A program made the translations under genes and the position numbers. 45,213 bases of DNA from positions 1-45,213 of IMG/VR virus record IMGVR_UViG_3300007352_000022. One strand, written 5' to 3'. The notes below the pieces were generated by a model. It saw only the letters and a list, made by a program, of their open reading frames with translations. It was not told the origin of the DNA and ran no database searches. This document shows positions 1,680 through 45,213 of the stretch, piece by piece (position 1 is the stretch's first letter; each line of letters begins with the position of its first letter). The DNA comes from a virus.

Positions 1680-1903
1680 CGGCGGTCCTCTGGGAGCGAG
1701 GCCCACATGGCGCATGCGAGCATGACGCCTACGGCCGAGATGCCGGTGATTAAATAAAAGCCGCCGACACCAAAGACGCTACAGAACCAGCCCACAAGCG
1801 CCAGCCATGCGACGACGAAACCGACGACAGGCCAGAAGATCACTCCCCACCCCCAGAGAGGAGGCCGGCGGTGCTCACGCGCGCGGCCATCACCGCACCT
1901 CAC
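1676..1903 (-). CDS. Small membrane protein with two transmembrane segments
   Basis: About 75 residues with two hydrophobic segments (about 20-40 and 45-68) separated by a short glycine-containing turn. The N-terminus is basic and proline-rich, and the tail LPEDRR is polar. The start given overlaps the pentapeptide gene by 14 bases. A GTG about 20 codons later follows a GGGGTGGGGA purine run and could be the real start. The protein would sit in the inner membrane. Role unknown; its operon position suggests an early accessory function. Confidence 0.55.
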   Translation of the reverse strand: MRCGDGRAREHRRPPLWGWGVIFWPVVGFVVAWLALVGWFCSVFGVGGFYLITGISAVGVMLACAMWASLPEDRR

Positions 1904-2744
1904 CCGTCGCCGCGTCGTATTCCTTCAGCGCCGCAATGATTTCCGGGTGCTCCGTCCGTCGCGCCGTCTCCACCACGCGCATCAGCGCACCGCGCTCGCG
2001 CTGCCACTCCTCGACCCACTGCACGGTGAGCCTCGTCACCGCGCTCTTCTCCGGCGTGTGCCCTGGGCGGATGAGCATAAACCATTGCTCGGCGGGTCGG
2101 CCGCTGTCTGGGCGGATCCCAAGGTCGCGGTAGTTGCACCCGCGCACCTTGGCGATTGTCCCGACGAGGCACGCGCACTCGCCCTCGTACACAGACCCGT
2201 CAACGCGGCCCTCCTTGAGCGCGGCGAGCAGGCCAGCCACCTCGCGGGGCGCGGCGTCGAGAACGACGCGCAGATCGGCACGCTGTGTCGCGAGGTTGGC
2301 GCCCTCGAGGCTGGCGCCCTCGAGGCTGGCGCGCCCGAGGTTGGCGCCCGCGAGGCTGGCGCCCGCGAGGCTGGCGCCCTCGAGGCTGGCGCGCCCGAGG
2401 TTGGCGCCCTCGAGGCTGGCGCCCTCGAGGCTGGCGCCCTCGAGGCTGGCGCGCCCGAGGTTGGCGCCCTCGAGGCTGGCGCCCTCGAGGTTGGCGCCCG
2501 CGAGGCTGGCGCCCGCGAGGTTGGCGCCCTCGAGGCTGGCGCGCCCGAGGTTGGCGCCCTCGAGGCTGGCGCCCTCGAGGTTGGCGCCCGCGAGGCTGGC
2601 GCCCGCGAGGTTGGCGCCCGCGAGGCTGGCGCCCGCGAGGTTGGCGCGCTTGCGCACAGCCTCCTCGAGCGCCTTCGCGAGCGTCTCGAACTCGCCCTCA
2701 AAGAGGACGGCGCTGGTGTAGCGGTGACGGATTTGGATCTGCAT
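1890..2744 (-). CDS. Pentapeptide-repeat protein with a C-terminal globular domain
   Basis: A 284-residue protein. Residues 35-150 are an almost perfect run of A(N/S)LxG-type pentapeptides (units such as ANLAG, ASLEG, ANLGR), which form a right-handed quadrilateral beta helix. The C-terminal 130 residues are globular, with CACLVGTIAKVRGC and an RPAEQWFMLIRPG segment. Pentapeptide proteins such as Qnr and MfpA mimic DNA and protect or inhibit gyrase. That role here is only a possibility, because this array is unusually uniform. The DNA is a homogeneous 15-bp tandem array, prone to length change. AGGAG lies six bases before the ATG. It follows the recombination genes in the leftward operon. Confidence 0.85.
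   Translation of the reverse strand: MQIQIRHRYTSAVLFEGEFETLAKALEEAVRKRANLAGASLAGANLAGASLAGANLEGASLEGANLGRASLEGANLAGASLAGANLEGASLEGANLGRASLEGASLEGASLEGANLGRASLEGASLAGASLAGANLGRASLEGASLEGANLATQRADLRVVLDAAPREVAGLLAALKEGRVDGSVYEGECACLVGTIAKVRGCNYRDLGIRPDSGRPAEQWFMLIRPGHTPEKSAVTRLTVQWVEEWQRERGALMRVVETARRTEHPEIIAALKEYDAATGEVR
2285..2655. repeat. 15-bp tandem repeat array inside the pentapeptide gene
   Basis: About 24 units of a 15-bp repeat of the form GAGGCTGGCGCCCTC, with variants, many carrying CTCGAG or CCCGAG. Each unit encodes one pentapeptide of the minus-strand gene. Such near-identity at DNA level implies recent expansion or gene conversion within the array. It explains the long artefactual open frames on the other strand. 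Confidence 0.9.
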
Positions 2745-8310: not shown

Positions 8311-8646
8311 CTAGGGCGAATACGACACGGTGAAGTCCTGCGTGCACTTGGTGCACCGCTGAACAATGAGCGCTCGCCGGATCGTCGTGGCCTGGCCGCA
8401 AAGCGGGCAGGGGTGCTTTAACTGCGTCGCGTTTTGGTGTGCCGCGAAACAAAGGAGGCTGAAGACAAAAATGGGGAGGCCAACCCACGGCGAAAATCCG
8501 CAAGCCGCGCACGACCCCAGCGCGAGACAAACCGCCCCAACAAGCACGATCGTGGAGACGACCTGGCTCGCGATGCCCTGTTGCCGCACTCGGAGATACA
8601 GGTCGATCGGCGGGCGCTGGCCCGACGGCGACGGCGGGTGGTTCAT
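8311..8646 (-). CDS. Membrane protein with C-terminal zinc ribbon, co-expressed with the repressor
   Basis: A 111-residue protein. Two transmembrane segments (about 27-48 and 53-70) are followed by CPLCG and CTKC spaced as a zinc ribbon in the cytoplasmic tail. Its start overlaps the repressor stop (ATGA), so the two are one transcription unit and it should be made in the lysogen. In lambda-like phages this place often holds exclusion genes. Superinfection exclusion or signalling to the repressor are reasonable guesses only. It converges on the lipoprotein gene with an 11-bp gap. Confidence 0.7.
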   Translation of the reverse strand: MNHPPSPSGQRPPIDLYLRVRQQGIASQVVSTIVLVGAVCLALGSCAACGFSPWVGLPIFVFSLLCFAAHQNATQLKHPCPLCGQATTIRRALIVQRCTKCTQDFTVSYSP

Positions 8647-9149
8647 TTCGTGGCCTCGTCATTGCTCGCGGCGGCTTGGCCCGCGATTGACTCGGGCTCC
8701 GTGGCGCGCAGCGACTCGAACAAATGCATCCACGAACGCGCCGATGGCTGGCGGCCTGCGGGCCACTCGGCTTGTCGCATCAGGAAGCGCTCGACGGATG
8801 ATGCGGTCCGTCCAACCGGAGTGCTGAGAAACTCTTGTAGGGCGCGCTCCGCCTCCTCCGACAGCCGCGATGGCGGCCCCGAGCGGAGGTCGCGCGCCGT
8901 CACTTCGTAGCCGAGGCGCCTTGAGAAGGCGCTCGCGAGCTTCTCGAGCGTATCATCGCGCGGATTCTTCCGCAGTCCTGCCTCGATCAGGGCGACGGTG
9001 GAGACATCAGCCGCGCGGGCGAGCTCGTCCTGCGTCCATCCGGCGAGGCGCCTATACGCCTTGATGGACTCGGCGGCATCCGACAGTTCGCGCGGTGGCT
9101 CCCGGTCCTTGTATGGGCGGCGTTTTCCCACAGGCGAAGAGTAAAACAT
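8643..9149 (-). CDS. XRE-family repressor (CI-like)
   Basis: A 168-residue protein with a helix-turn-helix at about 26-80 (ESIKAYRRLAGWTQDELARAADVSTVALIEAG, in two parts). The C-terminal half is helical and lacks the serine-lysine protease motif of LexA/CI, so induction is not by RecA-type self-cleavage. It is transcribed away from a Cro-like gene, with operator sites between them and one operator over its own start codon, which implies autoregulation. No Shine-Dalgarno precedes the ATG, so a leaderless message is possible. It is the best candidate for the lysogeny master repressor. Confidence 0.85.
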   Translation of the reverse strand: MFYSSPVGKRRPYKDREPPRELSDAAESIKAYRRLAGWTQDELARAADVSTVALIEAGLRKNPRDDTLEKLASAFSRRLGYEVTARDLRSGPPSRLSEEAERALQEFLSTPVGRTASSVERFLMRQAEWPAGRQPSARSWMHLFESLRATEPESIAGQAAASNDEATK

Positions 9150-9227: not shown

Positions 9228-9488
9228 ATGCGCCGAATCAAGGACTCGCCCGAGCGACTTGCAAAGCGCCTAGCCCGCAGGCGCGGGCTGAAGCAGGCGT
9301 TCGCCGCGCGACTGTCGCAGCGCCTTGGTCGCAGCATCGAGCCGTCCAGCGTGTCGCAGTGGATTCATCGCTATCGGCGCCCGCGGGAGGAGATCCGGCC
9401 GGACATCGAAGCCGTCGCTCGAGAGATGCTCGGCGTTGGCGTGCCCGCCGACGGATGGCCGCCGGTTGGCAAGGGGGCCGCGCGGTGA
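9228..9488 (+). CDS. Cro-like DNA-binding protein
   Basis: An 86-residue, strongly basic protein. Residues about 20-65 (KQAFAARLSQRLGRSIEPSS, then VSQWIHRYRRP) form a helix-turn-helix with a W-containing recognition helix, as in Cro/CI relatives. It is the first gene of the rightward operon and diverges from the repressor across shared operators. This is the expected place for a Cro that ends repressor synthesis and commits to lysis. No ribosome site precedes the ATG. Confidence 0.75.
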   Translation: MRRIKDSPERLAKRLARRRGLKQAFAARLSQRLGRSIEPSSVSQWIHRYRRPREEIRPDIEAVAREMLGVGVPADGWPPVGKGAAR

Positions 9489-9599: not shown

Positions 9600-9809
9600 A
9601 TGGTTGACGCCCCCCTCGAGCGCCTCCGAGCGCTCTCGGATGAGATCGACGCGATGATCCGGTTGCCCGGAGGCATCGGTCAAGAACGTCTTGTCGCGCG
9701 CTACCAGGAACTCGCCGCCGACTTCGACCGTGAGGCGTTCGTCATGGCGCTAGCCTTCGCCGCGGTCTCGCTGCGCCTCCGTCTCGATGGAACGAGGACT
9801 GGGCCATGA
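9600..9809 (+). CDS. Small helical protein, unknown
   Basis: A 69-residue protein starting MVDAPLERLRALSDEIDAMI: three predicted helices, acidic first, ending in a basic tail. A G-rich GGGGGGTGG run precedes the ATG. The stop overlaps the start of the next gene. It is the second credible gene of the rightward operon. Not recognised. Confidence 0.6.
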   Translation: MVDAPLERLRALSDEIDAMIRLPGGIGQERLVARYQELAADFDREAFVMALAFAAVSLRLRLDGTRTGP

Positions 9810-10051
9810 CCGTGCGCCACGCATTGGCGGTGAACCTGCGAGTGCGGCCGGCCTATCTGTGGCGGTCGTTGGTGTGGCTATCGCTGGCTCTCGCCGCGAC
9901 CGGGTGGCGCCGCGCCTCGTACTTGGTGGCCTCGTTGGTGCGTTTCGACGCCAGTGTTGATCGCGGGCCGTGGGTTCCGATGACGCACCTGTCGGCGGCT
10001 GTTGACCAAACCGCCGCGCAGTATCGCGACGGGACGCGGGGTGCGCCGTGA
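9806..10051 (+). CDS. Small basic/hydrophobic protein, copy A of a duplicated gene
   Basis: An 81-residue protein with ATGA coupling to the previous gene. It is a clear paralogue of the gene at 10607: both share LR(V/M)RP-LWR-LVWL, then GW-RA-Y-(V)A S-VRFDA, then a W-P-LS-A-DQ block. The central hydrophobic stretch (LWRSLVWLSLALAATGW) could lie in or on the membrane. Function unknown, but its duplication together with flanking elements suggests a mobile or amplified accessory unit. Confidence 0.65.
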   Translation: MTVRHALAVNLRVRPAYLWRSLVWLSLALAATGWRRASYLVASLVRFDASVDRGPWVPMTHLSAAVDQTAAQYRDGTRGAP

Positions 10052-10284
10052 CGCCTCCTCTCGGCTCGCGCGCCGCTGCCGAGATCCTCGGCACGATGCT
10101 GCGCCTAGCGCTCAGTCGGCGCGCGGGAGCGCCTCGGGCGGTGGTTGCCATGGGTACGGGTGCTCATCCCGCCACCGCGCCAGCACCCGCTCGGCCGTCG
10201 ACAAGAGTGGCGATTCTGACAGCGGACCTGAACGAAACCTGGCGACTATTGATGCAACTCGCTCGATCGCGAGGCGCTCAATGA
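10048..10284 (+). CDS. Weak small ORF following duplicated gene copy A
   Basis: GTG start overlapping the previous stop (GTGA), in the same place that the 89-aa gene occupies in copy B. The first 20 residues are plausible; the rest is alanine/proline-rich and overlaps the 3' end of the opposite-strand 114-aa gene. It may be a decayed counterpart of the copy-B gene or not translated. Confidence 0.25.
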   Translation: MTPPLGSRAAAEILGTMLRLALSRRAGAPRAVVAMGTGAHPATAPAPARPSTRVAILTADLNETWRLLMQLARSRGAQ

Positions 10285-10456
10285 CCGCAATCTCCTCTGC
10301 ATCGAGATCCTGCGTCGGTGCGACCGATCTCCTAATGCCGTACAGCGACAGCGTCTGCGTATCCACCGCCACCTGCACGACCAGAGACACGAGATGTGCA
10401 GCATCATCCTCCGTCAGCTTCGCGATAGGGCGGAGCTTGGGTCTCCAGTCTTCCAT
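10112..10456 (-). CDS. Opposite-strand small protein with switch-like leader (unit A)
   Basis: A 114-residue, well-balanced helical protein beginning MEDWRPKLRPIAKLTEDDA, with an acidic centre and a tryptophan/proline-rich end (YPWQPPPEALP). It runs against the surrounding rightward operon. Its GGAGACC Shine-Dalgarno and leader are repeated before the opposite-strand gene of unit B. Antisense placement means its transcription could oppose the operon. Family not recognised. Confidence 0.6.
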   Translation of the reverse strand: MEDWRPKLRPIAKLTEDDAAHLVSLVVQVAVDTQTLSLYGIRRSVAPTQDLDAEEIAVIERLAIERVASIVARFRSGPLSESPLLSTAERVLARWRDEHPYPWQPPPEALPRAD

Positions 10457-10459
10457 GCT

Positions 10460-10516
10460 GGTCTCCTCTTCGTGGGGTCTTGGTTTCCTCGCCCCGCTTT
10501 CGACGGGGAGGAGACC
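10460..10516 (-). promoter_or_regulatory. Leader A: mutually exclusive hairpins over the ribosome site
   Basis: On the minus strand an upstream GGTCTCCTC (from 10508-10516) can pair either with GAGGAAACC (10482-10490), extended by CGGGG/CCCCG, or with GAGGAGACC (10460-10468), which is the Shine-Dalgarno of the gene at 10456. One fold frees and the other hides the ribosome site. The same design occurs at 11435-11491. Confidence 0.55.
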
Positions 10517-10606
10517 CCTTTCGACTCAGATAGATCCCGGTGCCCATCGATGGCCACATGGCATGGCCCAGAAAGCGCAGCGCCGCGATCGCGCCCGAGG
10601 TGCGGC

Positions 10607-10855
10607 ATGAGTGGCGCCGCGGTGTCCATCGAGGTGCGGCTACGCATGCGGCCCGTGCTGCTATGGCGCCCGCTCGTATGGCTTGCGTGTCGGCTTACGG
10701 AAGCTGGCTGGCATCGGGCCGCGTACGTGGCGGCGTCGATGGTGCGCTTTGATGCCCGCGCCGGTCGGGCCTCGTGGCGCCCGTTGATTCGCCTGTCGAA
10801 GGCCATCGACCAAGCACCGGCACCGCATCTCGACGGAACGGGAGGTGCGTCGTGA
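10607..10855 (+). CDS. Small basic/hydrophobic protein, copy B of a duplicated gene
   Basis: An 82-residue paralogue of the gene at 9806, with about half the residues identical in the aligned core (LLWRPLVWL, then GWHRAAYVAASMVRFDA). Start MSGAAVS is preceded by GAGGTGC; the long upstream frame passes through the leader element and is rejected. It is followed by a GTGA-coupled gene, as copy A is. Function unknown. Confidence 0.65.
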   Translation: MSGAAVSIEVRLRMRPVLLWRPLVWLACRLTEAGWHRAAYVAASMVRFDARAGRASWRPLIRLSKAIDQAPAPHLDGTGGAS

Positions 10856-11121
10856 CGATCGAGGAACGCGTGGCCGCGCTCGAGAAGGGGGTCGCGGAGA
10901 TCAATGAGGGGCTCAACCGCTACTTTGCCGCGCCAGCGCCGGGCGAGGGCGCGACGCCCATCAAGGCGTACATTGCCGCGACGAACCCGCAGGAGATCGC
11001 AAAGACGCTACTGGAGATGGCGGAGCGGAGGGCCTACGTGTCAGCGGGTCGGATACTGCCGACTAAGCCCGCCGGGCTGTGGCGTCGCCTGGCGCGCTGG
11101 GCGCGTGGGTTGTGGCGATGA
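10852..11121 (+). CDS. Early small protein carrying the tape-measure C-terminal module
   Basis: An 89-residue protein with a GTG start overlapping the previous stop. Residues 1-22 form a short coiled coil (VTIEERVAALEKGVAEI). Residues 37-71 (IKAYIAATNPQEIA, then LLEMAERRAYVSAGRILP) match the end of the tape-measure protein (ITAYITSTNPQEIA, then LLSMAERKSYLARGTVLP) at about 21 of 34 positions. The tail is tryptophan/arginine-rich and amphipathic. An early protein that mimics the tail component could bind the same membrane or chaperone partner, for example to block superinfecting tails. That role is inference. Confidence 0.7.
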   Translation: MTIEERVAALEKGVAEINEGLNRYFAAPAPGEGATPIKAYIAATNPQEIAKTLLEMAERRAYVSAGRILPTKPAGLWRRLARWARGLWR

Positions 11122-11125
11122 GCTC

Positions 11126-11431
11126 TTACTCTTCCTCGTCGTCTCGAACAATGCGCAGCGTCGGTGGGCGCTGCGATCTGTTGCCAGCCACGTACTCGGT
11201 CATCTCACGTTCGATGTGGTCGATGGCCGGACCGCCGTTGCCCGACTCCCGCACACTGCGACAGGCCACGAGCAGGGGCCGCGCGATGTACTCGCGCGCC
11301 TTGTCGAGCGGCATCTCTGAACCATTGCCGATTAGTTCAAGAAGCGACTGCATCTCTGCGCGCGTCGCGATCACACTGCTCAAAAGCACCTGCAGCGCGC
11401 CATCGATGGCGCGCGCTTGTTCACCGTTCAT
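11126..11431 (-). CDS. Opposite-strand small protein with switch-like leader (unit B)
   Basis: A 101-residue helical protein starting MNGEQARAIDGALQVLLSSV and ending in an acidic DDEEE tail. Start chosen by the GGAGACC site six bases upstream. It converges on the tape-measure-like early gene with a four-base gap. It shares with the unit A antisense gene its orientation, leader and ribosome site, but I see no clear protein similarity between them. Confidence 0.6.
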   Translation of the reverse strand: MNGEQARAIDGALQVLLSSVIATRAEMQSLLELIGNGSEMPLDKAREYIARPLLVACRSVRESGNGGPAIDHIEREMTEYVAGNRSQRPPTLRIVRDDEEE

Positions 11432-11434
11432 GTT

Positions 11435-11491
11435 GGTCTCCTTCTCGTGGGGCTCTGGTCTCCTTGCCCCGCGTTCAACGGGAAGGAGACC
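11435..11491 (-). promoter_or_regulatory. Leader B: mutually exclusive hairpins over the ribosome site
   Basis: On the minus strand GGTCTCCTT (from 11483-11491) can pair perfectly with either of two AAGGAGACC copies: 11457-11465, extended by a C-G stem, or 11435-11443, the Shine-Dalgarno of the gene starting at 11431. The pairing is conserved with leader A despite base changes. Confidence 0.55.
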
Positions 11492-11580
11492 TCTCACGAC
11501 CCAATTTGTCTTGTTCGCTTGCGGTGTCTACGCAAAGCGCAGGCAAAAGTGCATCGTCGCGATCGCGTCCGAGGTGCTCC

Positions 11581-11973
11581 ATGCGTGAGCAACTCGTGCT
11601 CAGCCTCAACGACCGCTACCTCGACGAGCGCGACTTTCACCGCATCGTCGGCGGCATGGCCTCGGCGGCGAAGGACATCGGCCGGAAACGCATCGAGTCC
11701 GAGCTCGAGATACCGCACTCCACGCTGACACAGCAGCTCCGCGACGTGAACCGGCACGAGCCGAAGGTTCGCCTGTTGCTCTACATGTTGCGCCGACGCC
11801 CGGATGGCGAGCTCCCGAAGCTGCTCGCGGCGGTGTCCGGTCACGACGTAGCGCCCAAGACTGCGCTCACCAAAGAGCAGTGCTGGGACCGCGTCGATGA
11901 GTTCTGCAAGCGCAATCCGAAGCAGGGCGAGGTTCTCCTTCGCCTGTTCGGGCTCGTTCCGGAGGGCGCTTGA
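11581..11973 (+). CDS. Possible CII/CP76-like regulatory protein
   Basis: A 130-residue protein. The order of elements (helices, GRKRIESELEIPHSTLTQQL as a helix-turn-helix-like segment, then a helix with PDGELPKLLAAVSG) resembles the phage CII-type CP76 family, which activates or represses phage promoters. The C-terminal 35 residues (KEQCWDRVDEFCKRNPKQG) are separate and charged. GAGGTGC lies upstream. It sits just after the duplicated units and before the replication genes, where a CII would be expected. Assignment rests on layout and loose similarity. Confidence 0.5.
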   Translation: MREQLVLSLNDRYLDERDFHRIVGGMASAAKDIGRKRIESELEIPHSTLTQQLRDVNRHEPKVRLLLYMLRRRPDGELPKLLAAVSGHDVAPKTALTKEQCWDRVDEFCKRNPKQGEVLLRLFGLVPEGA

Positions 11974-12236: not shown

Positions 12237-12275
12237 GAGGCCCGCCGCGCTCGCTCCCCGGGCGCGGCGGGCCTC
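12237..12275 (+). terminator. Strong GC hairpin, probable terminator or attenuator
   Basis: GAGGCCCGCCGCG pairs perfectly with CGCGGCGGGCCTC, 13 base pairs around a 13-base loop, followed by AGCGTTTCG with a short T run. It separates the regulatory genes from the replication genes, as tR signals do in lambdoid phages. Confidence 0.6.
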
Positions 12276-12331
12276 AGCGTTTCGAGAATGTGGGCGGCGG
12301 TGGTTCTCGGGGGAGAAAGAAAAAGTCACGT

Positions 12332-13249
12332 ATGGCTCTGCTGCGCGTCAAGAACTGGAAGAAGTACCAGCACTACACCGACCGCAAGCCGGCCTGGATC
12401 AAGCTCCACCGCGAGCTGTTGGACGACCTCGACTTTCATCTGTTGCCGCTTGCTAGCAGAGCGCTAGCGCCATTGTTCTGGCTGCTAGCAAGCGAACACG
12501 ATGGCGGTGCGGTTCCGTACGACGTGCGCCGAATAGCGTTCCGCCTGCGTGCGAGCGAGGCCGATGTTATGGCGGCGCTCACGCCACTAATCGAGTCCGG
12601 GTTTCTGGAGGTCATTAGGGAAACCACAGAGGAAAAACAACCAGTTACCGCAACCGCTAGCGAGCCGCTAGCAGGCGTAAAGCAAGCTGCTAGCCCAGAG
12701 AGAGAGAGAGAGACAGAGGAAGAGAGAGAGAGAGAACGCGCGCGCGGCGCGCCTGCGGCGGGGGAGTTCCGTACGGGCTCGGAGATTGGCGAAGCCCTCA
12801 GAGCCAGCGGGTTCGCGAGGATCCCGCTCGGTGCAGACACGCAACTTCAGCGCCTCAAGCCACTCACGGCAGAGCATCTCAGGGCCCTGATCGACGACAT
12901 CGACGGGCGCGGAAAACCTCGAGAATCGTGCTCGCTGAACTACCTCAGGCCAATCCTCGAAGATCTGCGCGCCGGACGGCACACGAGCCAGCGCCAGGCC
13001 CCCACTCGCCGCTCCACCGCACCACCCGGCGGACCGGCCCCGGCCCCAGAGAAATCCCCCGAGCGCAAGCGCCTGGAGGCGCTCGGCCTGGACCACGGCG
13101 TGGCAGCACCGACCCCAGCCGAGGCGGCCGCGGTGCTCGACGGCGCTCCACCGGACGAGTGGCTGAACAAGATCCTGGCTGAGCCCGATGCCTCGTGGGC
13201 CACCATCGTGGCGCGACTCCCCGAACTGACTGCGCAGGTGATCCCATGA
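12332..13249 (+). CDS. Replication initiation protein (O-like) with internal origin repeats
   Basis: A 305-residue protein starting MALLRVKNWKKYQHYTDRKP with GGGAGAAAG upstream. Residues 1-100 form the winged-helix domain seen in many phage replication proteins (PAWIKLHRELLDD, then LPLASRALAPLFWLLASEHDG, then a second helix-turn-helix-like part). A charged ERERE linker of about 20 residues follows, then a C-terminal part with a helicase-loader-like helix (ADASWATIVARLPEL-type end). DnaB follows with an ATGA overlap, so this protein probably loads it. Its own gene holds six GCTAGC palindromes, as lambda O holds its origin. Confidence 0.75.
   Translation: MALLRVKNWKKYQHYTDRKPAWIKLHRELLDDLDFHLLPLASRALAPLFWLLASEHDGGAVPYDVRRIAFRLRASEADVMAALTPLIESGFLEVIRETTEEKQPVTATASEPLAGVKQAASPERERETEEERERERARGAPAAGEFRTGSEIGEALRASGFARIPLGADTQLQRLKPLTAEHLRALIDDIDGRGKPRESCSLNYLRPILEDLRAGRHTSQRQAPTRRSTAPPGGPAPAPEKSPERKRLEALGLDHGVAAPTPAEAAAVLDGAPPDEWLNKILAEPDASWATIVARLPELTAQVIP
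12452..12694. repeat. Phased GCTAGC iterons, candidate replication origin
   Basis: Six GCTAGC palindromes at 12452, 12463, 12484, 12656, 12667 and 12689. They form two groups of three with nearly identical spacings (11 and 21, then 11 and 22), multiples of a helical turn. An A-rich stretch (12615-12650) lies between the groups and a purine tract follows. The arrangement suits initiator binding and unwinding. Confidence 0.6.
12697..12736 (+). repeat. GA-rich purine tract next to the iterons
   Basis: A 40-base run of almost only AG dinucleotides encoding the ERE-rich linker. It has mirror symmetry, so it could form triplex or easily bent DNA beside the candidate origin, or be a neutral microsatellite. 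Confidence 0.6.
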
Positions 13250-14610
13250 GCCGCATTCCTCCCCATGACCTGGATGCCGAACGCGGTGTTCTCGGCGGTG
13301 CCATGCTCGAGGCCTCGGCTGCCGACGAGGCTCTGTCGATGCTCACCGACGAGTGCTTTTACGACCCGAAGCACCGCGCAATCTTCGCCGCGATCCGCGA
13401 GGTGGCGCTGCGCAACGAGGCCGTGGACGAGCTCACGGTGGGCGCCGTGATCAAGGGCGAATCAATCTACCTCTCGAACCTCACGCTGAACACGCCCACG
13501 GCGGTCAACGTGCCATACTATGCCAAGATCGTGCTCGAGACCGCGATGCAACGGCAACTCATCGCCGCAGCGTCCGAGATCCAGCGCGAGGCGTACAACC
13601 TCCCGGAGGGCGGCGCCGCGGCTCTTGTCGACCGCGCCGGGGCGCGCATCTCGCAGATCTCGCTGGATCACGAAGAGCCGATCGTGGCGTCGGGTCGCGA
13701 CATCGCCAAGGAGCAAATCAAGCGCGTCGAAGCAGCTCGAGCGGGCGGCGGTGCTCGAGGACTAAAGACGGGCTTTGCTGATCTCGACGACAAGCTCGGA
13801 GGCCTGCTCCCGTCAAACTTCGTAGTGCTCGCCGCGCGCCCGTCCATGGGCAAGACGGCCCTCGCCACGAACATCGTTTCGCACGTCGCCGGCGAGGGGC
13901 GATCGGCGCTGTTTTTCTCCCTCGAGATGTCCACCGACGAGGTGGGAGAACGCATCCTGTCGGCGGACTCGAGGATCGATCTTAACCGGCTGCGGCACGG
14001 CCACCTGGGTGCGAATGACTGGCCGCGGCTCGCCGCTGCGAGCAACCGTCTGCATCTCTCGGGAACCTACGTGGTGGACAAGCCGTCGCTCGGCATCCTC
14101 GAGATTCGGGCGCTGTCGCGCAGGCACAAGGCCCGCCATGGGCTGGACCTGGTCGTGGTGGATTACCTGCAACTCGTCACCGCCGGCAAAGGCGAGACCC
14201 GAGAGCAAGAGGTTGCGGCCATCTCGCGCGGGCTCAAGGCGCTAGCCAAAGAGCTTTCGATCCCGGTCATCGCCCTGAGCCAGCTCAATCGAGGCGTCGA
14301 GTCCCGCGAGGACAGGCGCCCCCGTCTGAGCGACCTGAGAGAGAGCGGCGCCGTGGAGCAAGACGCCGACGTCGTGCTGTTCGTCTATCGCGACGACTAC
14401 TACTACGGCGAGCGCTCACAGGACCCGGGCGTCGCCGAAATTATCATCGGCAAGAACCGCAACGGCTCAACCGAGGGACCGGTTCGACTCAAGTGGTCGG
14501 GCAACTTCACGCGGTTCGACAATCTGACGAAGACCGAAGTTGGTCGTACAAGCCGAGCGGCTGCTTCGCCCGGAGCGCGTTATGCGGCTCAGGAGGAGGC
14601 GCGCTCGTGA
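13246..14610 (+). CDS. dnaB: Replicative DNA helicase (DnaB family)
   Basis: A 454-residue protein with both DnaB domains. The N-terminal helical domain starts PPHDLDAERGVLGGAML. The RecA-like domain has Walker A ARPSMGKTA near residue 200, Walker B LVVVDYLQLV near 305, SQLNRGVESR and LRESGAVEQDADVV near 350-375. It is a hexameric 5'-3' helicase that opens the fork. The start overlaps the O-like gene stop by four bases. Length and motifs match bacterial DnaB, so the phage brings its own helicase instead of hijacking the host's. Confidence 0.95.
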   Translation: MSRIPPHDLDAERGVLGGAMLEASAADEALSMLTDECFYDPKHRAIFAAIREVALRNEAVDELTVGAVIKGESIYLSNLTLNTPTAVNVPYYAKIVLETAMQRQLIAAASEIQREAYNLPEGGAAALVDRAGARISQISLDHEEPIVASGRDIAKEQIKRVEAARAGGGARGLKTGFADLDDKLGGLLPSNFVVLAARPSMGKTALATNIVSHVAGEGRSALFFSLEMSTDEVGERILSADSRIDLNRLRHGHLGANDWPRLAAASNRLHLSGTYVVDKPSLGILEIRALSRRHKARHGLDLVVVDYLQLVTAGKGETREQEVAAISRGLKALAKELSIPVIALSQLNRGVESREDRRPRLSDLRESGAVEQDADVVLFVYRDDYYYGERSQDPGVAEIIIGKNRNGSTEGPVRLKWSGNFTRFDNLTKTEVGRTSRAAASPGARYAAQEEARS

Positions 14611-14653: not shown

Positions 14654-15022
14654 ATGGCAGTCATGCGGAAATTGAAGTGCAAGCTCACCGAGATCGAGGT
14701 CACGCAACGCGGCGAGAAGCTGGCCGCGAAGCTCGGCGAGAAGGCGGAACTCGAGCGGGAGATGAAGGACGAGCAGGCGCGGCGAAAGCTCGTGATCGCG
14801 GAGGTGACGAAGGAGATTGGGCAACTCGCCGTGGAGGTTCACGAGCGCGCCGCCGAGCGGCCGGTTCGCTGCACGTGGTCGAAGGACTCGACCCGGGTGT
14901 GGGCCGAACTCGTTCGCGATGACACCGGCGAGATCGTGGAGTCGCGACCGCTCACTCCAGAGGAGAGGCAGGGCGCGCTGTTTGTGGTTGGTGATGATGG
15001 CGGCGCCGGGGTTGGCGCATGA
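14654..15022 (+). CDS. Coiled-coil protein, unknown
   Basis: A 122-residue protein starting MAVMRKLKCKLTEIEVTQRG with AGGAG upstream. Residues 15-70 form a long charged helix, and the C-terminal half is a small beta-rich part (RCTWSKDSTRVWAELV) ending in glycine. The stop overlaps the nuclease start (ATGA). I recall similar helix-plus-beta proteins near phage helicase genes, but no function. A 22-codon frame in the 40-bp gap before it is not convincing. Confidence 0.65.
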   Translation: MAVMRKLKCKLTEIEVTQRGEKLAAKLGEKAELEREMKDEQARRKLVIAEVTKEIGQLAVEVHERAAERPVRCTWSKDSTRVWAELVRDDTGEIVESRPLTPEERQGALFVVGDDGGAGVGA

Positions 15023-15393
15023 GGGCAGCGGGCGCCTCACCGCTTGAGAAGCACGAACAGGTTGCGCTGGCGGCGTGGCTCGATTTTCACGGCGTCGTCT
15101 GGACGCACGTGCCAAATGGCGGGTCGCGCGACCGGCGGGAGGCCAGCAATCTGAAGCGACAGGGCGTCCGAGCCGGTATTCCAGACGTGCTCGTGTTCAG
15201 CCACGCCCCGCTTCGCCCGGACGCCCGCGGTGTTGCGATCGAACTCAAGCGGGAGCGCGGGGGGCGCACGTCGGCGGAGCAGCGAGCATGGCTCGATCGT
15301 ATGACGGGGCTGGGGTGGGTCACGTACATCGCCCACGGCTCGCGCGACGCCATCCGGTTCCTGGAGTCCGTCGGGTTCGGGAGGCCTCGCTGA
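15019..15393 (+). CDS. VRR-NUC domain nuclease
   Basis: A 124-residue protein covering one VRR-NUC fold: EKHEQVALAAWLDFHG (helix), THVPNGG, RAGIPDVLVF (catalytic D), GVAIELKRERGG (ExK) and a closing helix plus strand. Stand-alone phage VRR-NUC enzymes cut branched or structured DNA such as Holliday junctions. Position after DnaB suggests resolution of replication or recombination intermediates before packaging. The catalytic residues are intact, unlike those of the paralogue at 16377. Confidence 0.85.
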   Translation: MRAAGASPLEKHEQVALAAWLDFHGVVWTHVPNGGSRDRREASNLKRQGVRAGIPDVLVFSHAPLRPDARGVAIELKRERGGRTSAEQRAWLDRMTGLGWVTYIAHGSRDAIRFLESVGFGRPR

Positions 15394-15569
15394 TGGCCGC
15401 CCGCGTCCCTCGCCAGATGACGCTGCCGCCGACGCGGAAACCTCGTCGTGCGGCAACGAAGCAGCAGGTTATCCATGCCCTCGAGCGCAAGGTGATGGTC
15501 CAGAGCATCACGATTGAGGCGCTGCGCAAGGAGTTGTCCGAAGCCAAGCGGCGGAGCGGGCGCACATGA
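15393..15569 (+). CDS. Small basic helical protein
   Basis: A 58-residue protein starting MAARVPRQMTLPPTRKPRRA with TGATG coupling to the nuclease stop. A basic N-terminal tail is followed by a leucine-zipper-like helix. Its stop overlaps the sigma-factor start. It may bind DNA or the sigma factor. Not recognised. Confidence 0.55.
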   Translation: MAARVPRQMTLPPTRKPRRAATKQQVIHALERKVMVQSITIEALRKELSEAKRRSGRT

Positions 15570-16390
15570 AGAGCCGGACCGCCGACGCCTTCGCCGAGCG
15601 GGCATACCGATATCCGCCGCTCTCCGCGCGAGAGGAGTTCGACGTCGCCACGCGTGCCGCCGCTGGAGACCAGGAGGCCCGCCACAAGCTCGTGTTGCAC
15701 AACCAGCTCTTCGCGCTGAAGCAGGCCAACCGCCGCCGTCTCTACGGTCACCCGCTCGAAGAACTCCTGCAGGAGGCGAACCTCGGACTCGTGCTTGCAT
15801 CGAGGTACTTCGATCCCACGAAGGGCTTTCGATTCATCTCCTACGCCGTGTGGTGGATTGGCGCACGGCTCAACGCGTATTGCATGGACCAGCACTCGCT
15901 CGTGCGGATTGGAACCACCGATCGGAAGAGGCGGCTCTTCAGCCGCGTCGTCGCCGCGCACATGCGCCTGCGCGCCGAGAATCCGGAGGACGACGAGGGC
16001 GAGGTGTTCGCACGGGTCGCCGAGCACCTTGGCGAGGACCTCGATGACGTGATCGAGATGTACCACCGGGCGAGCAAGCGGGACGTGTCGCTCAATGAGG
16101 CGGTGTTCGAGGGCGCGCGCGAGGCCCGGGTAGACCGCCTGCCGGCGCCGAGCGTGGACGCCGATGCTGCGATCGACGACGCACGGCGAGACGCGGATGT
16201 TCGGGCCGTCGTAAGGCGATGGGCCCGCAGCGCGCAAGAGCGGCTCATCGTGGAGCGTCGTGTGCTGTGCCGAACACCGGAGACGCTCGAGAAGATCGGC
16301 GGTCGGCTCGGGGTCACTCGCGAGCGTGCGCGGCAGATCGAGGCGAGGCTTGTTTCACGGCTGAAGGAGGACCTGCATGCGGTGCTCTAG
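15566..16390 (+). CDS. Sigma-70-family (RpoH-like) phage sigma factor
   Basis: A 274-residue protein. Region 2 spans about 40-115 (HNQLFALKQANRRRLYGHP, then LLQEANLGLVLASRYFDP, then GFRFISYAVWWIGARL). Region 4 spans about 235-270, ending LGVTRERARQIEARLVSRL. Region 3 is shortened, and the layout is closest to heat-shock RpoH-type sigma factors. It lies at the end of the early rightward operon just before the late genes, so it most likely redirects host RNA polymerase to phage late promoters. The paired TGACAAC elements before the capsid and fibre operons are candidate targets, though unproven. Confidence 0.9.
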   Translation: MKSRTADAFAERAYRYPPLSAREEFDVATRAAAGDQEARHKLVLHNQLFALKQANRRRLYGHPLEELLQEANLGLVLASRYFDPTKGFRFISYAVWWIGARLNAYCMDQHSLVRIGTTDRKRRLFSRVVAAHMRLRAENPEDDEGEVFARVAEHLGEDLDDVIEMYHRASKRDVSLNEAVFEGAREARVDRLPAPSVDADAAIDDARRDADVRAVVRRWARSAQERLIVERRVLCRTPETLEKIGGRLGVTRERARQIEARLVSRLKEDLHAVL

Positions 16391-16742
16391 CGCGATGGCG
16401 TTCCCCCGCGACCCGACACCGACGCAGGCTGCGATCGAGGACGCCGTCGTGGCATGGCTTCGCGACCGAGACCTCGTTCTCGTGCGACCGATCGAAGCGG
16501 GGCGCCTCCAGCGTGACCAGCGCACGGCGAGCGGGGCGCCGAATATCCTCGTGCTCGTGACGCCACCATGCGACCCGTCGTCGAAGGGCGTGGCCATCAA
16601 GCTGCATCGCCCGACCGGCTATCGCATCAAGCAACGCGAGCTCGAGTGGATGCACAGACTCGCGTTCCTCAACTTCCGCACCGTCGTCGCTTTCTCGGTC
16701 GACGAAGCCGTGCGGTCACTTGGAGACCTCGGATGGAAGTGA
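16377..16742 (+). CDS. Degenerate VRR-NUC paralogue, probably catalytically dead
   Basis: A 121-residue protein aligning with the nuclease at 15019 along its length (PTQAAIEDAVVAWLRDRDL; SGAPNILVLV; GVAIKLHRPTGY; closing helix with FSVDEAVRSLGDLGW). The catalytic PD is PN, and the ExK is KLH, so metal binding should be lost. The start MRCSSAMAF has AAGGAGG six bases upstream and overlaps the sigma gene. A dead nuclease fold may bind DNA structures or the active nuclease as regulator. The overlap with the sigma gene keeps it in the same operon. Confidence 0.75.
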   Translation: MRCSSAMAFPRDPTPTQAAIEDAVVAWLRDRDLVLVRPIEAGRLQRDQRTASGAPNILVLVTPPCDPSSKGVAIKLHRPTGYRIKQRELEWMHRLAFLNFRTVVAFSVDEAVRSLGDLGWK

Positions 16743-27919: not shown

Positions 27920-28032
27920 GCAGACCGTCGTGGGTCGGGGCCTTGTCGAAGGGGTTTGAGCTTTACCCTTCCAGAGGCCCGAACCTCAGCGCGGCCCCGG
28001 CCTGCGGCGGAATCACATGGAAGGGAAGGCGC

Positions 28033-28443
28033 ATGGCAAACGATTTGGCGGGTGAGTTTTCGGTCAAGCTGGCTGACGGCAAGGAGCATGTCGTCGCGTT
28101 TGGCGCGCGCGGTCTGCGCGAGCTCGAGCGGGTGTTCAAGCGGCCGGTGCTGCAGTTCCTCGACGACGCGCGCAAGAACATGGTCGCGACCTGGGGCTAC
28201 GAGATGGTTCACGGGGCGCTGCTCGCCGGGCTCAGACACAAGAGGCCTGGGGTGGATGAAGCCTGGCTTGACCAGCGGTTCTCCACGCGCATGGTCGACA
28301 TGATCGGCTACGCCCAGGTCGTGACGGATGCCATCCTCGCGGCGACCTTCGGCCCAGAAGAGCTCCGCGGCGACGAGCTGAAGAAGGAGGCCCCTTCGGA
28401 GGGCCCGCGCCCTTCGAGCACTTCCCCTGGCGGGACTGGCTGA
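28033..28443 (+). CDS. Tail assembly chaperone, short form (gpG-like)
   Basis: A 136-residue protein: EFSVKLADGKEHVVAF strand pair, then GARGLRELERVFKRPVLQFL and helical rest. The start is MANDLAGE with GAAGGCGC before it; the frame upstream is not gene-like. It binds the tape measure during assembly. At 28401-28407 GGGCCCG forms a -1 slippery heptamer in this frame, and the chain terminates 36 bases later at 28443. Confidence 0.8.
   Translation: MANDLAGEFSVKLADGKEHVVAFGARGLRELERVFKRPVLQFLDDARKNMVATWGYEMVHGALLAGLRHKRPGVDEAWLDQRFSTRMVDMIGYAQVVTDAILAATFGPEELRGDELKKEAPSEGPRPSSTSPGGTG
28401..28407 (+). promoter_or_regulatory. -1 ribosomal frameshift heptamer GGGCCCG
   Basis: G GGC CCG in the chaperone frame matches the X XXY YYZ slippery pattern, with the next frame open on both sides and downstream hairpin-capable GC sequence. 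It explains production of the long G-T chaperone. Confidence 0.7.
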
Positions 28444-28715
28444 TCGCGGCACTTAGGTGCGGCTACACGCCGCAGGAGTTCTGGAGCATGAGCCCGTTCG
28501 AGTTGAGGTTGGCGGTTCAGGCTCGCGGGCTCGAGCGCGAGGCGGACCTCGAGCTCTCCGCCGTGCACGCGGCGTGGACGATGGCGCCTCATTTGAAGAC
28601 GCCGACGAGCGCCGACGAACTCCTAGGGCGACACACCATCAGCATGGAGCAATTCGCCACCATCGGCGAGGCGCTGGAGTACCAGCGCAAGCTTCACGGG
28701 GTAGACGATGAGTGA
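28404..28715 (+). CDS. Tail chaperone extension (T part of gpG-T, by -1 frameshift)
   Basis: After slipping at GGGCCCG the -1 frame reads APFEHFPWRDWLIAALRCG, then YTPQEFWSMSPFELRLAVQ and 65 more residues to a stop at 28713. The peptide before any ATG (EHFPWRDWLIAALRCGY) is clearly coding, so the product must be made by fusion. The first in-frame ATG (28488) sits inside it. The tape measure starts eight bases before its stop. This G-T fusion is the long chaperone, made at low frequency in most long-tailed phages. Confidence 0.8.
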   Translation, partial: PAPFEHFPWRDWLIAALRCGYTPQEFWSMSPFELRLAVQARGLEREADLELSAVHAAWTMAPHLKTPTSADELLGRHTISMEQFATIGEALEYQRKLHGVDDE

Positions 28716-31053
28716 CGCTGTCGTCGGGAGCATCGAGGTAGCGCTCCGCGCCAATACTGCGGAGTTCGACCGCGGCATGCGCGCCGTAGTCGAGAAGCTC
28801 GGCGGCATCGAGGCGGCCCTTGGCAAGATGGGGTCGAAGACGAGCGAGGCGACTGAGGCGACAGGCAGAGCCACGGCAAAGTGGGCCTCGCTCTACGATG
28901 TTGCGATCAAGGGCGCCATGAAGCTGGTGAGTGTCGCCATGGAGGGGGTCGATCAGGCCCGTGCTCAGGCCGAGGCCAACACGCGTCTCGGCAACGTCCT
29001 GCGATCCATCGGTGCTGACGTTGACGCGGTAACCGACCTCTACGGGAAGCAAGCCGACACCATAGAGCGCCTCACCGGCATGGATGACACCCAGATCACG
29101 AACATGCAGCGCCTCGCGCTCAACTACGGAGTGCAGGCCGACAAGGTGACTACGCTGATCGACGCGTCGGTGGCGTTGTCCGAGGCCACTGGTCAGGACG
29201 TCAATGCGGCGATGATGTCGCTCATCAAGAGCATGGACGGGACAATCGACAGAAGTCTTCGTCTGGTCCCTGGCGTGAAAGACCTTACCGAGGCGCAGTT
29301 GCGCCACGGAGATGCGCTGAGCGTCGTATCCGATAAGTATGGCGACGTCGTGGGCAACAAGGACTCGTTTAACCGCGCCGTCACTGACATGACCGTCGCA
29401 TGGGGGGACTTCACGAAAGCCCTCGGGAAGGCGATCATCGAGTTCGGCCCGTTGATCCGATACATCAGCGGACTGGCCGTCGAACTCAATGTTCTCATCG
29501 ACAGCATCGCGGAGTTCGGGGCGATCCGCGGCATGTTCATTACTGCCGTTGCAGCGGTGAACCCTGACCTCGCGGCGGACTACGTCGAAGGCGCGAGATT
29601 CAACGCGGCTGTCGGGCGCTTCGGGCAAGGAGGCTCACGACCGGCAGCCTCGCCGGTCGACTATGGCCGCAACGCCGGCGTCGGAAGCGGCCCGAAAGAC
29701 AGGTTCGATCTCAAGATCGGAGCACCTCAGTTCGGTGACTGGAACGCAGTGGACATCACCGAGATGCCCGACATGGACCTCTCGAAGCAGCTCGAGCAGG
29801 CCGCGCTCGACATCCACGGCATCGAGCAGTTCGTCGACATCTCCGAACAACTCGCTACCGCCGCTGACGAGATGTACCGGCAGGACTTTGCGAAAAGGTT
29901 TGGTGACGGGATCGAGTGGGGCACCAGGAACTATGTCGACGGACTTAAGCTTGCGACCGACAAGGCGACCAAGGACGCCGCCATCTGGGAGGCGGCACGA
30001 AAGAAGATTGCCGATGCCGTGGTAAGTGTAGCCGGCGGAATCAAGGACGTCATCGGATCCGCGTTGTCACAGGCGACGTCTGCGTTCACGTCCGGCGTCA
30101 GCAGTTCGGCATCAAGCTACGAGGCTCTGGCTGAGCAGCGTCGTGCTGCGGGCGATACGACAGGAGCGGCGGAGGCTAAATACCAGGCCGAAGTTCGAAA
30201 GAAAGCGGCTCAGGATGGCCAGGCATTCTCCAGGGCGATGTCGGCGACGCTCAGCGGCGGCCCAATGGCTGGCCTGCAGGCTGTTCTTTCGGAGGCCTTC
30301 GGGCGCTCGCAGGCGTTCCAGCGCATCGCGGAGATAGGCTCAAGAATGATGGGACGACTCATCGCCGCCGTTGAGCCACTTGCGTCTGCGCTTGAGCCTC
30401 TGGCGGCTGTCTTCGGGGAGATCGTCAGCGCTATCGCTGATTCACTTGCGCCAGTGCTCGAGCATGTCAAGCCAGTGATCGAGATGTTTGGCGAAGTCGT
30501 GCGCGGGTTCGCCCTGGTGCACGCCTACGTAATCAAGGGGCTGGGCTCAGCATGGAACGCCATCATTTCGGCGATCCAATGGGTCCTCCGGAAGATCGAC
30601 AAGATCGTGCCGGGCGACAAGCTCAACGACCTCGCCGACTCCATGGGCAACGCCAAGGTCAACATGGACGGGCTCAACGAGACGATCGAGAACCTGAAGC
30701 ATCCGAAGATCGACGACGGACTCGGCCTCCTGGATGACCTCCCTGGCACGCTCGATGACATCAATGACTCTGGTGAAGACCTCGGCGACACGCTCGACAA
30801 GGTCAACGCCTCACTCACCAACGTTCCTGAGGGCTTCAAAGTAGCCCGCTCCCGCTACATGGCTTCCGACCCAACGCGCTCTGGGTTCGAGGGCGTGGCT
30901 GCTGGCAACACCATCACGGCGTACATCACTTCGACCAACCCGCAGGAGATCGCGCAGGTCCTCCTATCGATGGCCGAGCGCAAGTCGTACCTCGCGCGTG
31001 GCACCGTCCTCCCAGGCATCGGCCCGTACGGCGCCCAGAAGGCGGCGGGGTAG
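28708..31053 (+). CDS. Tape measure protein
   Basis: A 781-residue helical protein starting MSDAVVGSIEVALRANTAEF, with the family's N-terminal block (AEFDRGMRAVVEKLGGIEAAL), a long helical middle and a hydrophobic region at about 560-630. It sets tail length and is ejected with DNA; 781 residues predict a tail of roughly 110-120 nm. Its last 50 residues (ITAYITSTNPQEIA; LLSMAERKSYLARGTVLP) match the early protein at 10852, an unexpected sharing. It overlaps the chaperone stop by eight bases. Confidence 0.92.
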   Translation: MSDAVVGSIEVALRANTAEFDRGMRAVVEKLGGIEAALGKMGSKTSEATEATGRATAKWASLYDVAIKGAMKLVSVAMEGVDQARAQAEANTRLGNVLRSIGADVDAVTDLYGKQADTIERLTGMDDTQITNMQRLALNYGVQADKVTTLIDASVALSEATGQDVNAAMMSLIKSMDGTIDRSLRLVPGVKDLTEAQLRHGDALSVVSDKYGDVVGNKDSFNRAVTDMTVAWGDFTKALGKAIIEFGPLIRYISGLAVELNVLIDSIAEFGAIRGMFITAVAAVNPDLAADYVEGARFNAAVGRFGQGGSRPAASPVDYGRNAGVGSGPKDRFDLKIGAPQFGDWNAVDITEMPDMDLSKQLEQAALDIHGIEQFVDISEQLATAADEMYRQDFAKRFGDGIEWGTRNYVDGLKLATDKATKDAAIWEAARKKIADAVVSVAGGIKDVIGSALSQATSAFTSGVSSSASSYEALAEQRRAAGDTTGAAEAKYQAEVRKKAAQDGQAFSRAMSATLSGGPMAGLQAVLSEAFGRSQAFQRIAEIGSRMMGRLIAAVEPLASALEPLAAVFGEIVSAIADSLAPVLEHVKPVIEMFGEVVRGFALVHAYVIKGLGSAWNAIISAIQWVLRKIDKIVPGDKLNDLADSMGNAKVNMDGLNETIENLKHPKIDDGLGLLDDLPGTLDDINDSGEDLGDTLDKVNASLTNVPEGFKVARSRYMASDPTRSGFEGVAAGNTITAYITSTNPQEIAQVLLSMAERKSYLARGTVLPGIGPYGAQKAAG

Positions 31054-43647: not shown

Positions 43648-45213
43648 TCAGTGTCCCCTGCGTGCCAGATACGCTTCCGCCAGGCGTTTGATGTTGTCCC
43701 CGCCTGTCTCAAGCTTCTCGACGAGTTCGGCGTTCGGATCACGGAGCCCTTCGATCTGCGATCGTTTAAGCCCAAGCACGTCCGCAATCACGGGATCTGA
43801 GCCGCTATCCGAGAGGAGGAAGTACGCTACGACCTTCTCCGTCTGCCCGTCGCGGTGGACGCGTCCGATGGCCTGCTCATGCACGCCTGGGCTCCAGTCG
43901 AGTTCGCCGAACACGACGGTGCGGCAGCATCCCTGAAGACCGTCGAGCCCTGCACCAGCACGCAGTGACATCAAGAGCACCTTCGATGCTCCGGAAACGA
44001 ACGCCTCCTTGGCCGCCTTCTTCTGCGCTGGGCTCTCACTGCCCGTGAACATCACGGGGGACAGGTCCTTGAGCCGCTCCATCCACAGATCGTAGACGAC
44101 GCGGTGCCATCCGTAGAGGACGACGCGCTCGTCGCTCTCGACGAGCAGGCGCACGAACTCAGCGACGTACGGCGCCTTGGCGATGCCGGTGGCCTGGCGC
44201 AGCAGCATGCTGATCTCCTCGGCCGCGCGCATCCTCTCGCCCTTCACCAGCTGCGGGCCTTGGGCGAGCAGGATCCTGGCGAGCTCGGACGCGCGGTCCT
44301 CGACTGCGTCGAGCGCATCGGCGTCCGAGTCGACGTGGTGGATCGCCTTCGTCAGGTCGGGCAGCTCGCGGCCGACGTCCTCGCGCGTGCGCCTGAGCAT
44401 GAGGCCCTCCGCACGCAAGAACGAACCGAAGGACTTCGGATCCTTGATGAGCAGGCGGTCGTTGCTCATTGTGCTGCACCATTCGCGCGAGAACTCTCCC
44501 CGAGTGCCGAGCGAGTCGGGCCGGACGATGTTCAGCACCGAGTGCATCTCGCCGCCGTAGTTGTAGATGGGCGTCGCGCTGAGCCCGGTGCGGAAGTCGG
44601 CCTGGTCGGCGATGTGCTTTGCCGACTTGTATTTGTCGCTGTCGTGGTGCCGGAGATCCTGGACCTCGTCGAAGATGACGCTCTTGACGCGCCCGGCGAG
44701 GACGTCCGCCCAGCCGGCGAGCTTATGATAGTTCGTGATGATGACGTCGGGCAGATCGTCGACACCGGGCAGCGCTAGGTTGGGCTCTTCCTTCCGCTTC
44801 CGGCTCATCGCTTTCTTGATGTCGTAAGGCGTGCCCTTCCGGAGAATGTGCGTGGTTAGCTGCGGCGCGAACCGCTTGATCTCGGCCTGCCACTGACGTG
44901 GCAGGTGCGTGAGCGTCACGACAAGCGCCGGCCTGGTGCGCGGGTCGGTGAGCGTGCAGATGGCGGTGGCCGTCTTGCCCAGGCCGACGTCCGAGTAGAG
45001 GAAGAGCGGGTTGTACGCCGTCGCCGGATTCTCTGCGACCGCGTGGCACGTCGCAAAGGCGAAGTTGTTGCGCTCGCCGACGATGAACGTCTCGAACGTG
45101 TAGTCCGGCACGAGGCGAAAGCCCACCGTCTCCGCGCTCGAGCCCGGCGCGGCAGCGGCGCCCGGACCCAGCTCGCGCCCCACGCGCGCCGAGATGTGCT
45201 TGTCCGCCAGCTG
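43648..45213 (-). CDS. SNF2-type helicase with DnaA-like N-terminal AAA+ segment (partial at edge)
   Basis: At least 521 residues, open to the window edge and probably joined to the start at 48. [20 protein letters not shown] and [15 protein letters not shown] match the start of the DnaA AAA+ domain up to Walker A. From there the chain is SNF2-like: [24 protein letters not shown] (motif II), GLSATPI (motif III), [15 protein letters not shown] and [16 protein letters not shown] (motifs V-VI). DnaA's own later motifs are absent. An ATP-dependent remodeller targeted by a DnaA-like part is possible. It belongs to the leftward early operon if the genome is circular. Confidence 0.85.

Follow-up and report, generated by a model that had tools for sequence, protein, structure and literature searches.

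Why would a small, probably early protein of a phage carry a copy of a segment from the end of the tail tape measure protein (TMP) encoded by the same genome? This question is raised by a 45,213-nt viral DNA stretch (IMG/VR virus record IMGVR_UViG_3300007352_000022), which was analysed in its entirety and is referred to here as the window. The protein concerned, designated P0001, may represent a membrane-tethered mimic of the tip of its own TMP which blocks injection by related phages, a reading to which we assign a probability of about 35%. An earlier note, based on the letters of the sequence, had placed the early protein at 10852-11121 and the TMP at 28708-31053, and open reading frames (ORFs) were indeed found at both places. 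The features of these two proteins and of the gene before the TMP, all on the plus strand, are as follows.

10852-11121, plus strand: P0001, early protein of 89 aa with a GTG start (ORF call, translation, codon statistics)
10957-11061, plus strand: module in P0001, aa 36-70, PIKAYIAATNPQEIAKTLLEMAERRAYVSAGRILP (BLASTP, Smith-Waterman, codon comparison)
11068-11118, plus strand: amphipathic cationic tail of P0001, PAGLWRRLARWARGLWR (hydrophobic-moment computation)
27943-28715, plus strand: tail assembly chaperone, directly 5' of the TMP gene (-1 slip site, gene order)
28708-31053, plus strand: tail TMP, 781 aa (phrog_1535 at 5e-6, gene order)
30910-31014, plus strand: module in the TMP, aa 735-769 of 781, TITAYITSTNPQEIAQVLLSMAERKSYLARGTVLP (BLASTP, Smith-Waterman, alignment of TMP ends)

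A module shared by P0001 and the tape measure protein

Pairwise BLASTP revealed an ungapped match between P0001 and residues 736-769 of the TMP, in which 21 of 34 positions are identical and 28 of 34 similar (E 6e-13; 62% identity over 34 aa, 50 bits), confirming the earlier count of approximately 21 equal positions in 34. The Smith-Waterman score of the two proteins was 115, whereas 1000 shuffles averaged 33 and did not exceed 56, and in an ungapped six-frame scan of the window the TMP site scored 112, the second-best site scoring 28. When all ORFs of the window were compared with one another, few pairs of non-overlapping ORFs were significant, and this pair was among them (E 1e-9). The likeness runs on through MAERxxYxxxGxxLP, past both the motif of TMP tips and that of the Ead/Ea22-like proteins discussed below.

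At the DNA level, codon positions 1, 2 and 3 of the two modules agree in 23, 29 and 17 of 35 codons, respectively, while 11 codons are identical, against 11.7 expected from codon usage. Non-synonymous (dN) and synonymous (dS) divergence, estimated by NG86, amounted to 0.28 and 1.46, respectively, the synonymous sites being saturated. Because silent sites are saturated while protein identity has stayed at 62%, a recent DNA duplication of the module was rejected, and the module pair is an old similarity held at the protein level. A dN of 0.28 with a dS of 1.46 points to a common function or partner, which suggests that both copies may still serve the same interaction. Common descent of the P0001 module and the TMP is considered very probable, as P0001 matches its own TMP far better than any foreign protein and the likeness continues beyond both motifs; convergence of short motifs is left as a residual alternative. 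The same values bear on the idea that the module is a neutral leftover, copied by recombination and carried without function: although other duplications occur in the early region (9806/10607 and 10454/11429), long retention at the protein level renders this highly improbable.

The designation of 28708-31053 as a TMP, also taken from the earlier note, stood up to scrutiny. Its product matches phrog_1535 at 5e-6 and two further TMP families of PHROGs at 1e-3, matches that are weak but consistent, and its gene stands after those of the major tail protein and the tail assembly chaperone. At 28401 the chaperone gene contains GGGCCCG, a canonical -1 slip site placed in the correct frame, from which a second frame opens and reaches the TMP start. 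The succession of major tail protein, frameshifted chaperone and TMP is the usual gene order in siphophages. Directly 3' of the TMP gene, a tail protein gene starts at 31057.

These positions also bear on an alternative function for P0001, that of a tail-assembly factor. Acting in the cytoplasm as a chaperone or placeholder, it would bind the tail-tip (Dit/hub) proteins of its phage or the TMP itself and thereby delay tail initiation. The module lies at the same end of the TMP, and the gene at 31057 follows directly after it; however, gene order assigns P0001 to the early operon and separates it from the tail genes by 20 kb, an unexpected place for such a factor, and its amphipathic tail would be left without a role. 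An assembly function is accordingly considered unlikely.

The module as a tape measure tip element

A recurring C-terminal element of TMPs was found to consist of a strand, the motif [N/D]-P-x-E-I-A and a helix, a pattern to which the P0001 module conforms (IKAYIAATNPQEIAKTLLEM; strand and helix as read from the sequence). The window TMP carries this element at the C-terminus of a long tape measure, whereas P0001 is an 89-aa protein in which 19 residues follow the module. A degenerate DNA pattern for Y-I-x-x-[ST]-N-P-x-E-I-A produced three matches in viral contigs, one of which is real; the other two were attributed to chance, and another degenerate DNA pattern produced no match. The real match lies in L035, a viral contig unrelated to the window, in which a 1391-aa TMP-like protein ends in ...NNFYITGSNPQEIANAVIAKMAMINKSNGERR*. 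Judged by eye, this protein (L035 5024-9199, minus strand) also has a stretch resembling a peptidase (VTGRALDL...HLHVV), which immediately precedes the tip element.

Using the L035 tip as a query identified Burkholderia phage KS14, with a TMP ending in ...YVFHITGNDPKEIANQVRQVLADIERKK..., and the KS14 tip in turn retrieved the TMPs of FLC5, Smp131, Milagro, Musica and SNW-1, partly at weak E-values, as well as an unannotated phage in which a 1437-aa frame carries ...FNIMGSNPKEIAEEVSNII... at its C-terminus. A nine-row TMP-tip profile applied to 15 phage records matched eight of them, once each, within frames of 604-1437 aa; the records with one C-terminal copy of the module are KS14, FLC5, Smp131, Milagro, SNW-1, L035, L060 and G001. 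Since most of these eight records had supplied rows of the profile, their hits are circular and uninformative in themselves, the informative part of the scan being that no second module-bearing protein was found in any matched record. The profile had no match in 111 bacterial genomes of one phylum, a negative that is uncalibrated, and lambda, HK97, PY54 and others were likewise unmatched, several of these still ending in comparable strand-plus-helix segments. Four other phages were checked for a second copy of their own TMP end, and none was seen to have one.

Cryo-electron microscopy shows the C-terminal helices of the lambda TMP (residues 818-842 of 853) bundled as a three-helix coiled coil within the tail tip (PMC10721106), and TP901-1 cannot do without the final 30 residues of its TMP (PMC5099701). 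Together with the C-terminal placement in TMP-type proteins, these findings make it most likely that the module is a TMP tip element. In lambda gpH (818-842), KS14 gp12, Smp131 T and the SNW-1 TMP, the element presents a strand, an [N/D]-P turn and a helix, as in P0001, and sits in the last ~30-45 residues; gpH is comparable in position only, as the TMP-tip profile does not match it. P0001 differs from these proteins in that its element is not part of a tape measure; instead it is fused between a short coiled coil and a cationic helix, in the product of an early-region gene. The earlier view of the module as a tail element is thus borne out, profile matches being restricted to the C-termini of TMP-type proteins. 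Its occurrence in many non-tail proteins, which would have spoken against that view, was not observed, with the caution that a similar-looking strand-NP-helix motif occurs in Ead/Ea22-like proteins.

Architecture of P0001

The translation of 10852-11121 (plus strand) reads VTIEERVAALEKGVAEINEGLNRYF-AAPAPGEGAT-PIKAYIAATNPQEIAKTLLEMAERRAYVSAGRILP-TKPAGLWRRLARWARGLWR, which corresponds to a coiled coil (aa 3-25), a linker (aa 26-35), the TMP-tip module (aa 36-70) and an amphipathic cationic C-terminus (aa 73-89). The gene exhibits a positive codon score and a third-position GC content (GC3) of 0.83, has its own ribosome-site sequence (GGGAGG) 5' of the start, and overlaps the stop of the 10607-10855 gene via a GTGA junction. 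Residues 3-21 display a perfect a/d heptad pattern (I3-V7-L10-V14-I17-L21), constituting a three-heptad coiled coil, and were modelled as a helix with a predicted local distance difference test (pLDDT) score near 80. The last 15 residues, GLWRRLARWARGLWR, contain six arginines and no acidic residues, and have a hydrophobic moment of 0.76, a value reached by 0.35% of shuffles. Cationic amphipathic ends with a high moment are typical of membrane-binding amphipathic helices, and the P0001 tail is likely to be such a helix. Given the heptads and the moment, the short coiled coil and cationic tail proposed by the earlier note are real sequence features.

Location of P0001 in the early region

The genes around P0001 with an assigned identity or relationship are given below.

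8643-9149, minus strand: cI-like helix-turn-helix (HTH) repressor (HTH_3, 3.8e-10)
9228-9488, plus strand: cro-like small HTH protein, first gene of the rightward early operon (phrog_4, 9.5e-4, a weak family match)
10607-10855, plus strand: gene directly 5' of P0001, overlapping it via GTGA; paralogue of 9806-10051 (49% identity)
12290-13249, plus strand: replication initiation protein, 3' of P0001 (phrog_26426, 3.4e-25)
13195-14610, plus strand: DnaB-like helicase (family matches)

The repressor gene is followed by the divergent gene at 9228-9488 and then by genes starting at 9600, 9806 and 10607, P0001, and genes starting at 11581, 11973, 12290 and 13195, all on the plus strand, with two minus-strand ORFs interleaved among the rightward genes of the P0001 region. 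Because this order matches the layout of an early rightward operon, P0001 was taken to be early, and it probably lies in a cro-to-replication operon of this kind.

Several further observations were made in this region. The paralogous early genes at 9806-10051 and 10607-10855 (plus strand) encode proteins that are 49% identical and have no family match, and each gene overlaps the start of the ORF after it at a terminal GTGA junction. A 75-nt inverted-repeat leader (GGTCTCC...GGAGACC) is present in two copies, at 10454-10528 and 11429-11503, with 80% identity; the copies lie between minus-strand ORFs (10112-10456 and 11126-11431, with good Shine-Dalgarno sites) and plus-strand genes, and an arm of the leader can pair with the ribosome site of the minus gene. 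A 17-bp G+C stem (12237-12275; -43 kcal/mol, z -5.4) directly precedes the replication gene.

Possible role in superinfection exclusion

The shared module, its identity as a TMP tip and the amphipathic tail are the observed parts of the reading of P0001 as a TMP-tip mimic. The suggestion of the earlier note, that such a protein could block DNA injection of related phages through a shared inner-membrane partner, is partly supported. Beyond the observed parts, P0001 would be made early and stay cytoplasmic. It would form oligomers through its N-terminal coiled coil, in the manner of the trimeric TMP, and would be anchored to the inner leaflet of the cytoplasmic membrane by its cationic amphipathic C-terminus. 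The module, copying the strand-NP-helix tip element of the TMP, could then occupy the host partner on which the TMP tip docks and so block later injections; alternatively, P0001 might block injection by entering the coiled coil of the incoming tip. Phages with the same TMP tip would be excluded. Partner occupation or coiled-coil mixing would fit a P0001 that is an early, probably membrane-bound copy of the tip. The broader proposition, that a stand-alone early decoy of a phage's own tape measure tip at the inner membrane excludes phages sharing that tip, i.e. self-directed exclusion by mimicry, is doubtful.

The exclusion idea is plausible because both TMP-directed exclusion and TMP-based host defence at the membrane are already known. 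The principle that superinfection can be excluded at the membrane by targeting the TMP is established (Ltp, PMC3952083; HK97 gp15, cited in PMC10883804): Ltp excludes phages by binding the C-terminal region of the TMP (PMC3952083), and hybrids in which the genes for tail tube and TMP come from another phage escape exclusion by gp15 (PMC10883804). The early expression of exclusion proteins is common to many phages (PMC9586334). TP-J34 Ltp and HK97 gp15 share with the proposed P0001 a small size, a proposed membrane site and a TMP-linked target, but the cited passages describe no TMP segment for either, unlike P0001. The T5 lipoprotein Llp is likewise a small phage protein that excludes during infection, yet it blocks the outer-membrane receptor FhuA, whereas the P0001 reading concerns a TMP partner.

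The lambda TMP meets the inner-membrane ManYZ during injection, and SNIPE is a host defence acting at the inner membrane through siphophage TMPs (PMC13190303). SNIPE thus works where P0001 is proposed to work; however, it is a host nuclease, while P0001 matches no nuclease or defence family, and no exclusion or defence family was matched in PADLOC, PHROGs or Pfam. P0001 could instead be an anti-defence decoy, offering a TMP-like tip to a SNIPE-like membrane defence and sparing later steps, since the inner membrane is where SNIPE and siphophage TMPs meet (PMC13190303) and P0001 combines a TMP element with a likely membrane-binding tail. Such defences nevertheless work during injection, earlier than any early gene expression, and the SNIPE-escape changes in Bas14 lie at TMP residues 100-150 rather than at the C-terminus (PMC13190303), which makes a decoy very unlikely.

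Several results weigh against P0001 being an exclusion protein that mimics the TMP tip. No signal peptide or transmembrane segment was seen in P0001 by eye, unlike Ltp, a lipoprotein, and gp15, which is predicted to be an inner-membrane protein. The AlphaFold model of whole P0001 is weak (pLDDT 67) and lacks the module strand, and that of the TMP end is unusable (pLDDT 41). No close relative of P0001, the TMP or the module was found in viral contigs, genome contigs, phages, plasmids, PDB, Pfam, PHROGs or PADLOC, and the search for the same pair in other phages, which the earlier note had suggested, revealed no second phage with a P0001-type protein and a matching TMP tip among the few genomes covered. 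The best foreign matches of P0001 reached 30-32 bits (50,697 phage and 72,556 plasmid records) versus 50 bits for its own TMP; a match to Escherichia coli phage phiA2-1 was attributed to chance. A sister phage was not found via capsid and tail proteins, so the pair was checked in few genomes only. Terminase relatives numbered 11, all distant (39-53% identity), and the module was not found in the seven longest of these. As the searched collections may omit records very close to the window, the uniqueness of the pair is relative to the few genomes covered.

The likeness of P0001 to Ead/Ea22-like early proteins, which bear the superficially similar strand-NP-helix motif FIAAANPxAILxLIAEVExL, weighs in the same direction. 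An ad hoc profile built from seven such proteins, chosen after the fact, gave P0001 15.0 bits, against 8.1 bits from the TMP-tip profile when its own TMP was omitted (22.5 bits with it included); on the same ad hoc profiles, the window TMP scored 7.3 bits on the Ead-like proteins and 12.6 on TMP tips. The best foreign phage match of P0001, Tr60_Ab31 ORF22 (30.8 bits pairwise), is weakly Ead_Ea22 in Pfam. P0001 might therefore be a short Ead/Ea22-like early protein with a 'YIAAANPxxILxLIAExExLR' motif, its TMP likeness being partly or wholly convergent, as both are a strand with an NP-capped helix; its early location would fit. However, the Pfam family Ead_Ea22 (PF13935) matched neither P0001 at E<=1 nor the module at E<=10, and P0001 matches its own TMP with 20 bits more, over a likeness that extends through MAERxxYxxxGxxLP, which neither motif explains. 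This origin is also judged unlikely.

Other features of the window

A phage-encoded sigma-70-type factor (15566-16390, plus strand; phrog_351, 4e-36) is located between the replication and head genes. The proteins encoded at 15019-15393 and 16377-16742 (plus strand) are related (30% over 116 aa), the first matching endonuclease/resolvase families. A SNF2-type helicase is encoded at 43648-45183 (minus strand), residues 26-71 of which strongly match the Pfam DnaA ATPase profile, and a pentapeptide-repeat protein (1890-2744, minus strand) adjoins RecT/RecE-type recombination genes.

Implications

Little is known about the contacts of siphophage TMP tips in the host membrane beyond a few coliphages, and a natural, separately encoded copy of the tip would serve directly as bait for its host docking partner. 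The C-terminal motif of TMPs could also aid the annotation of tape measure ends. If P0001 does exclude related phages, it would represent a new exclusion mechanism, in which the invader's own injection element is mimicked.
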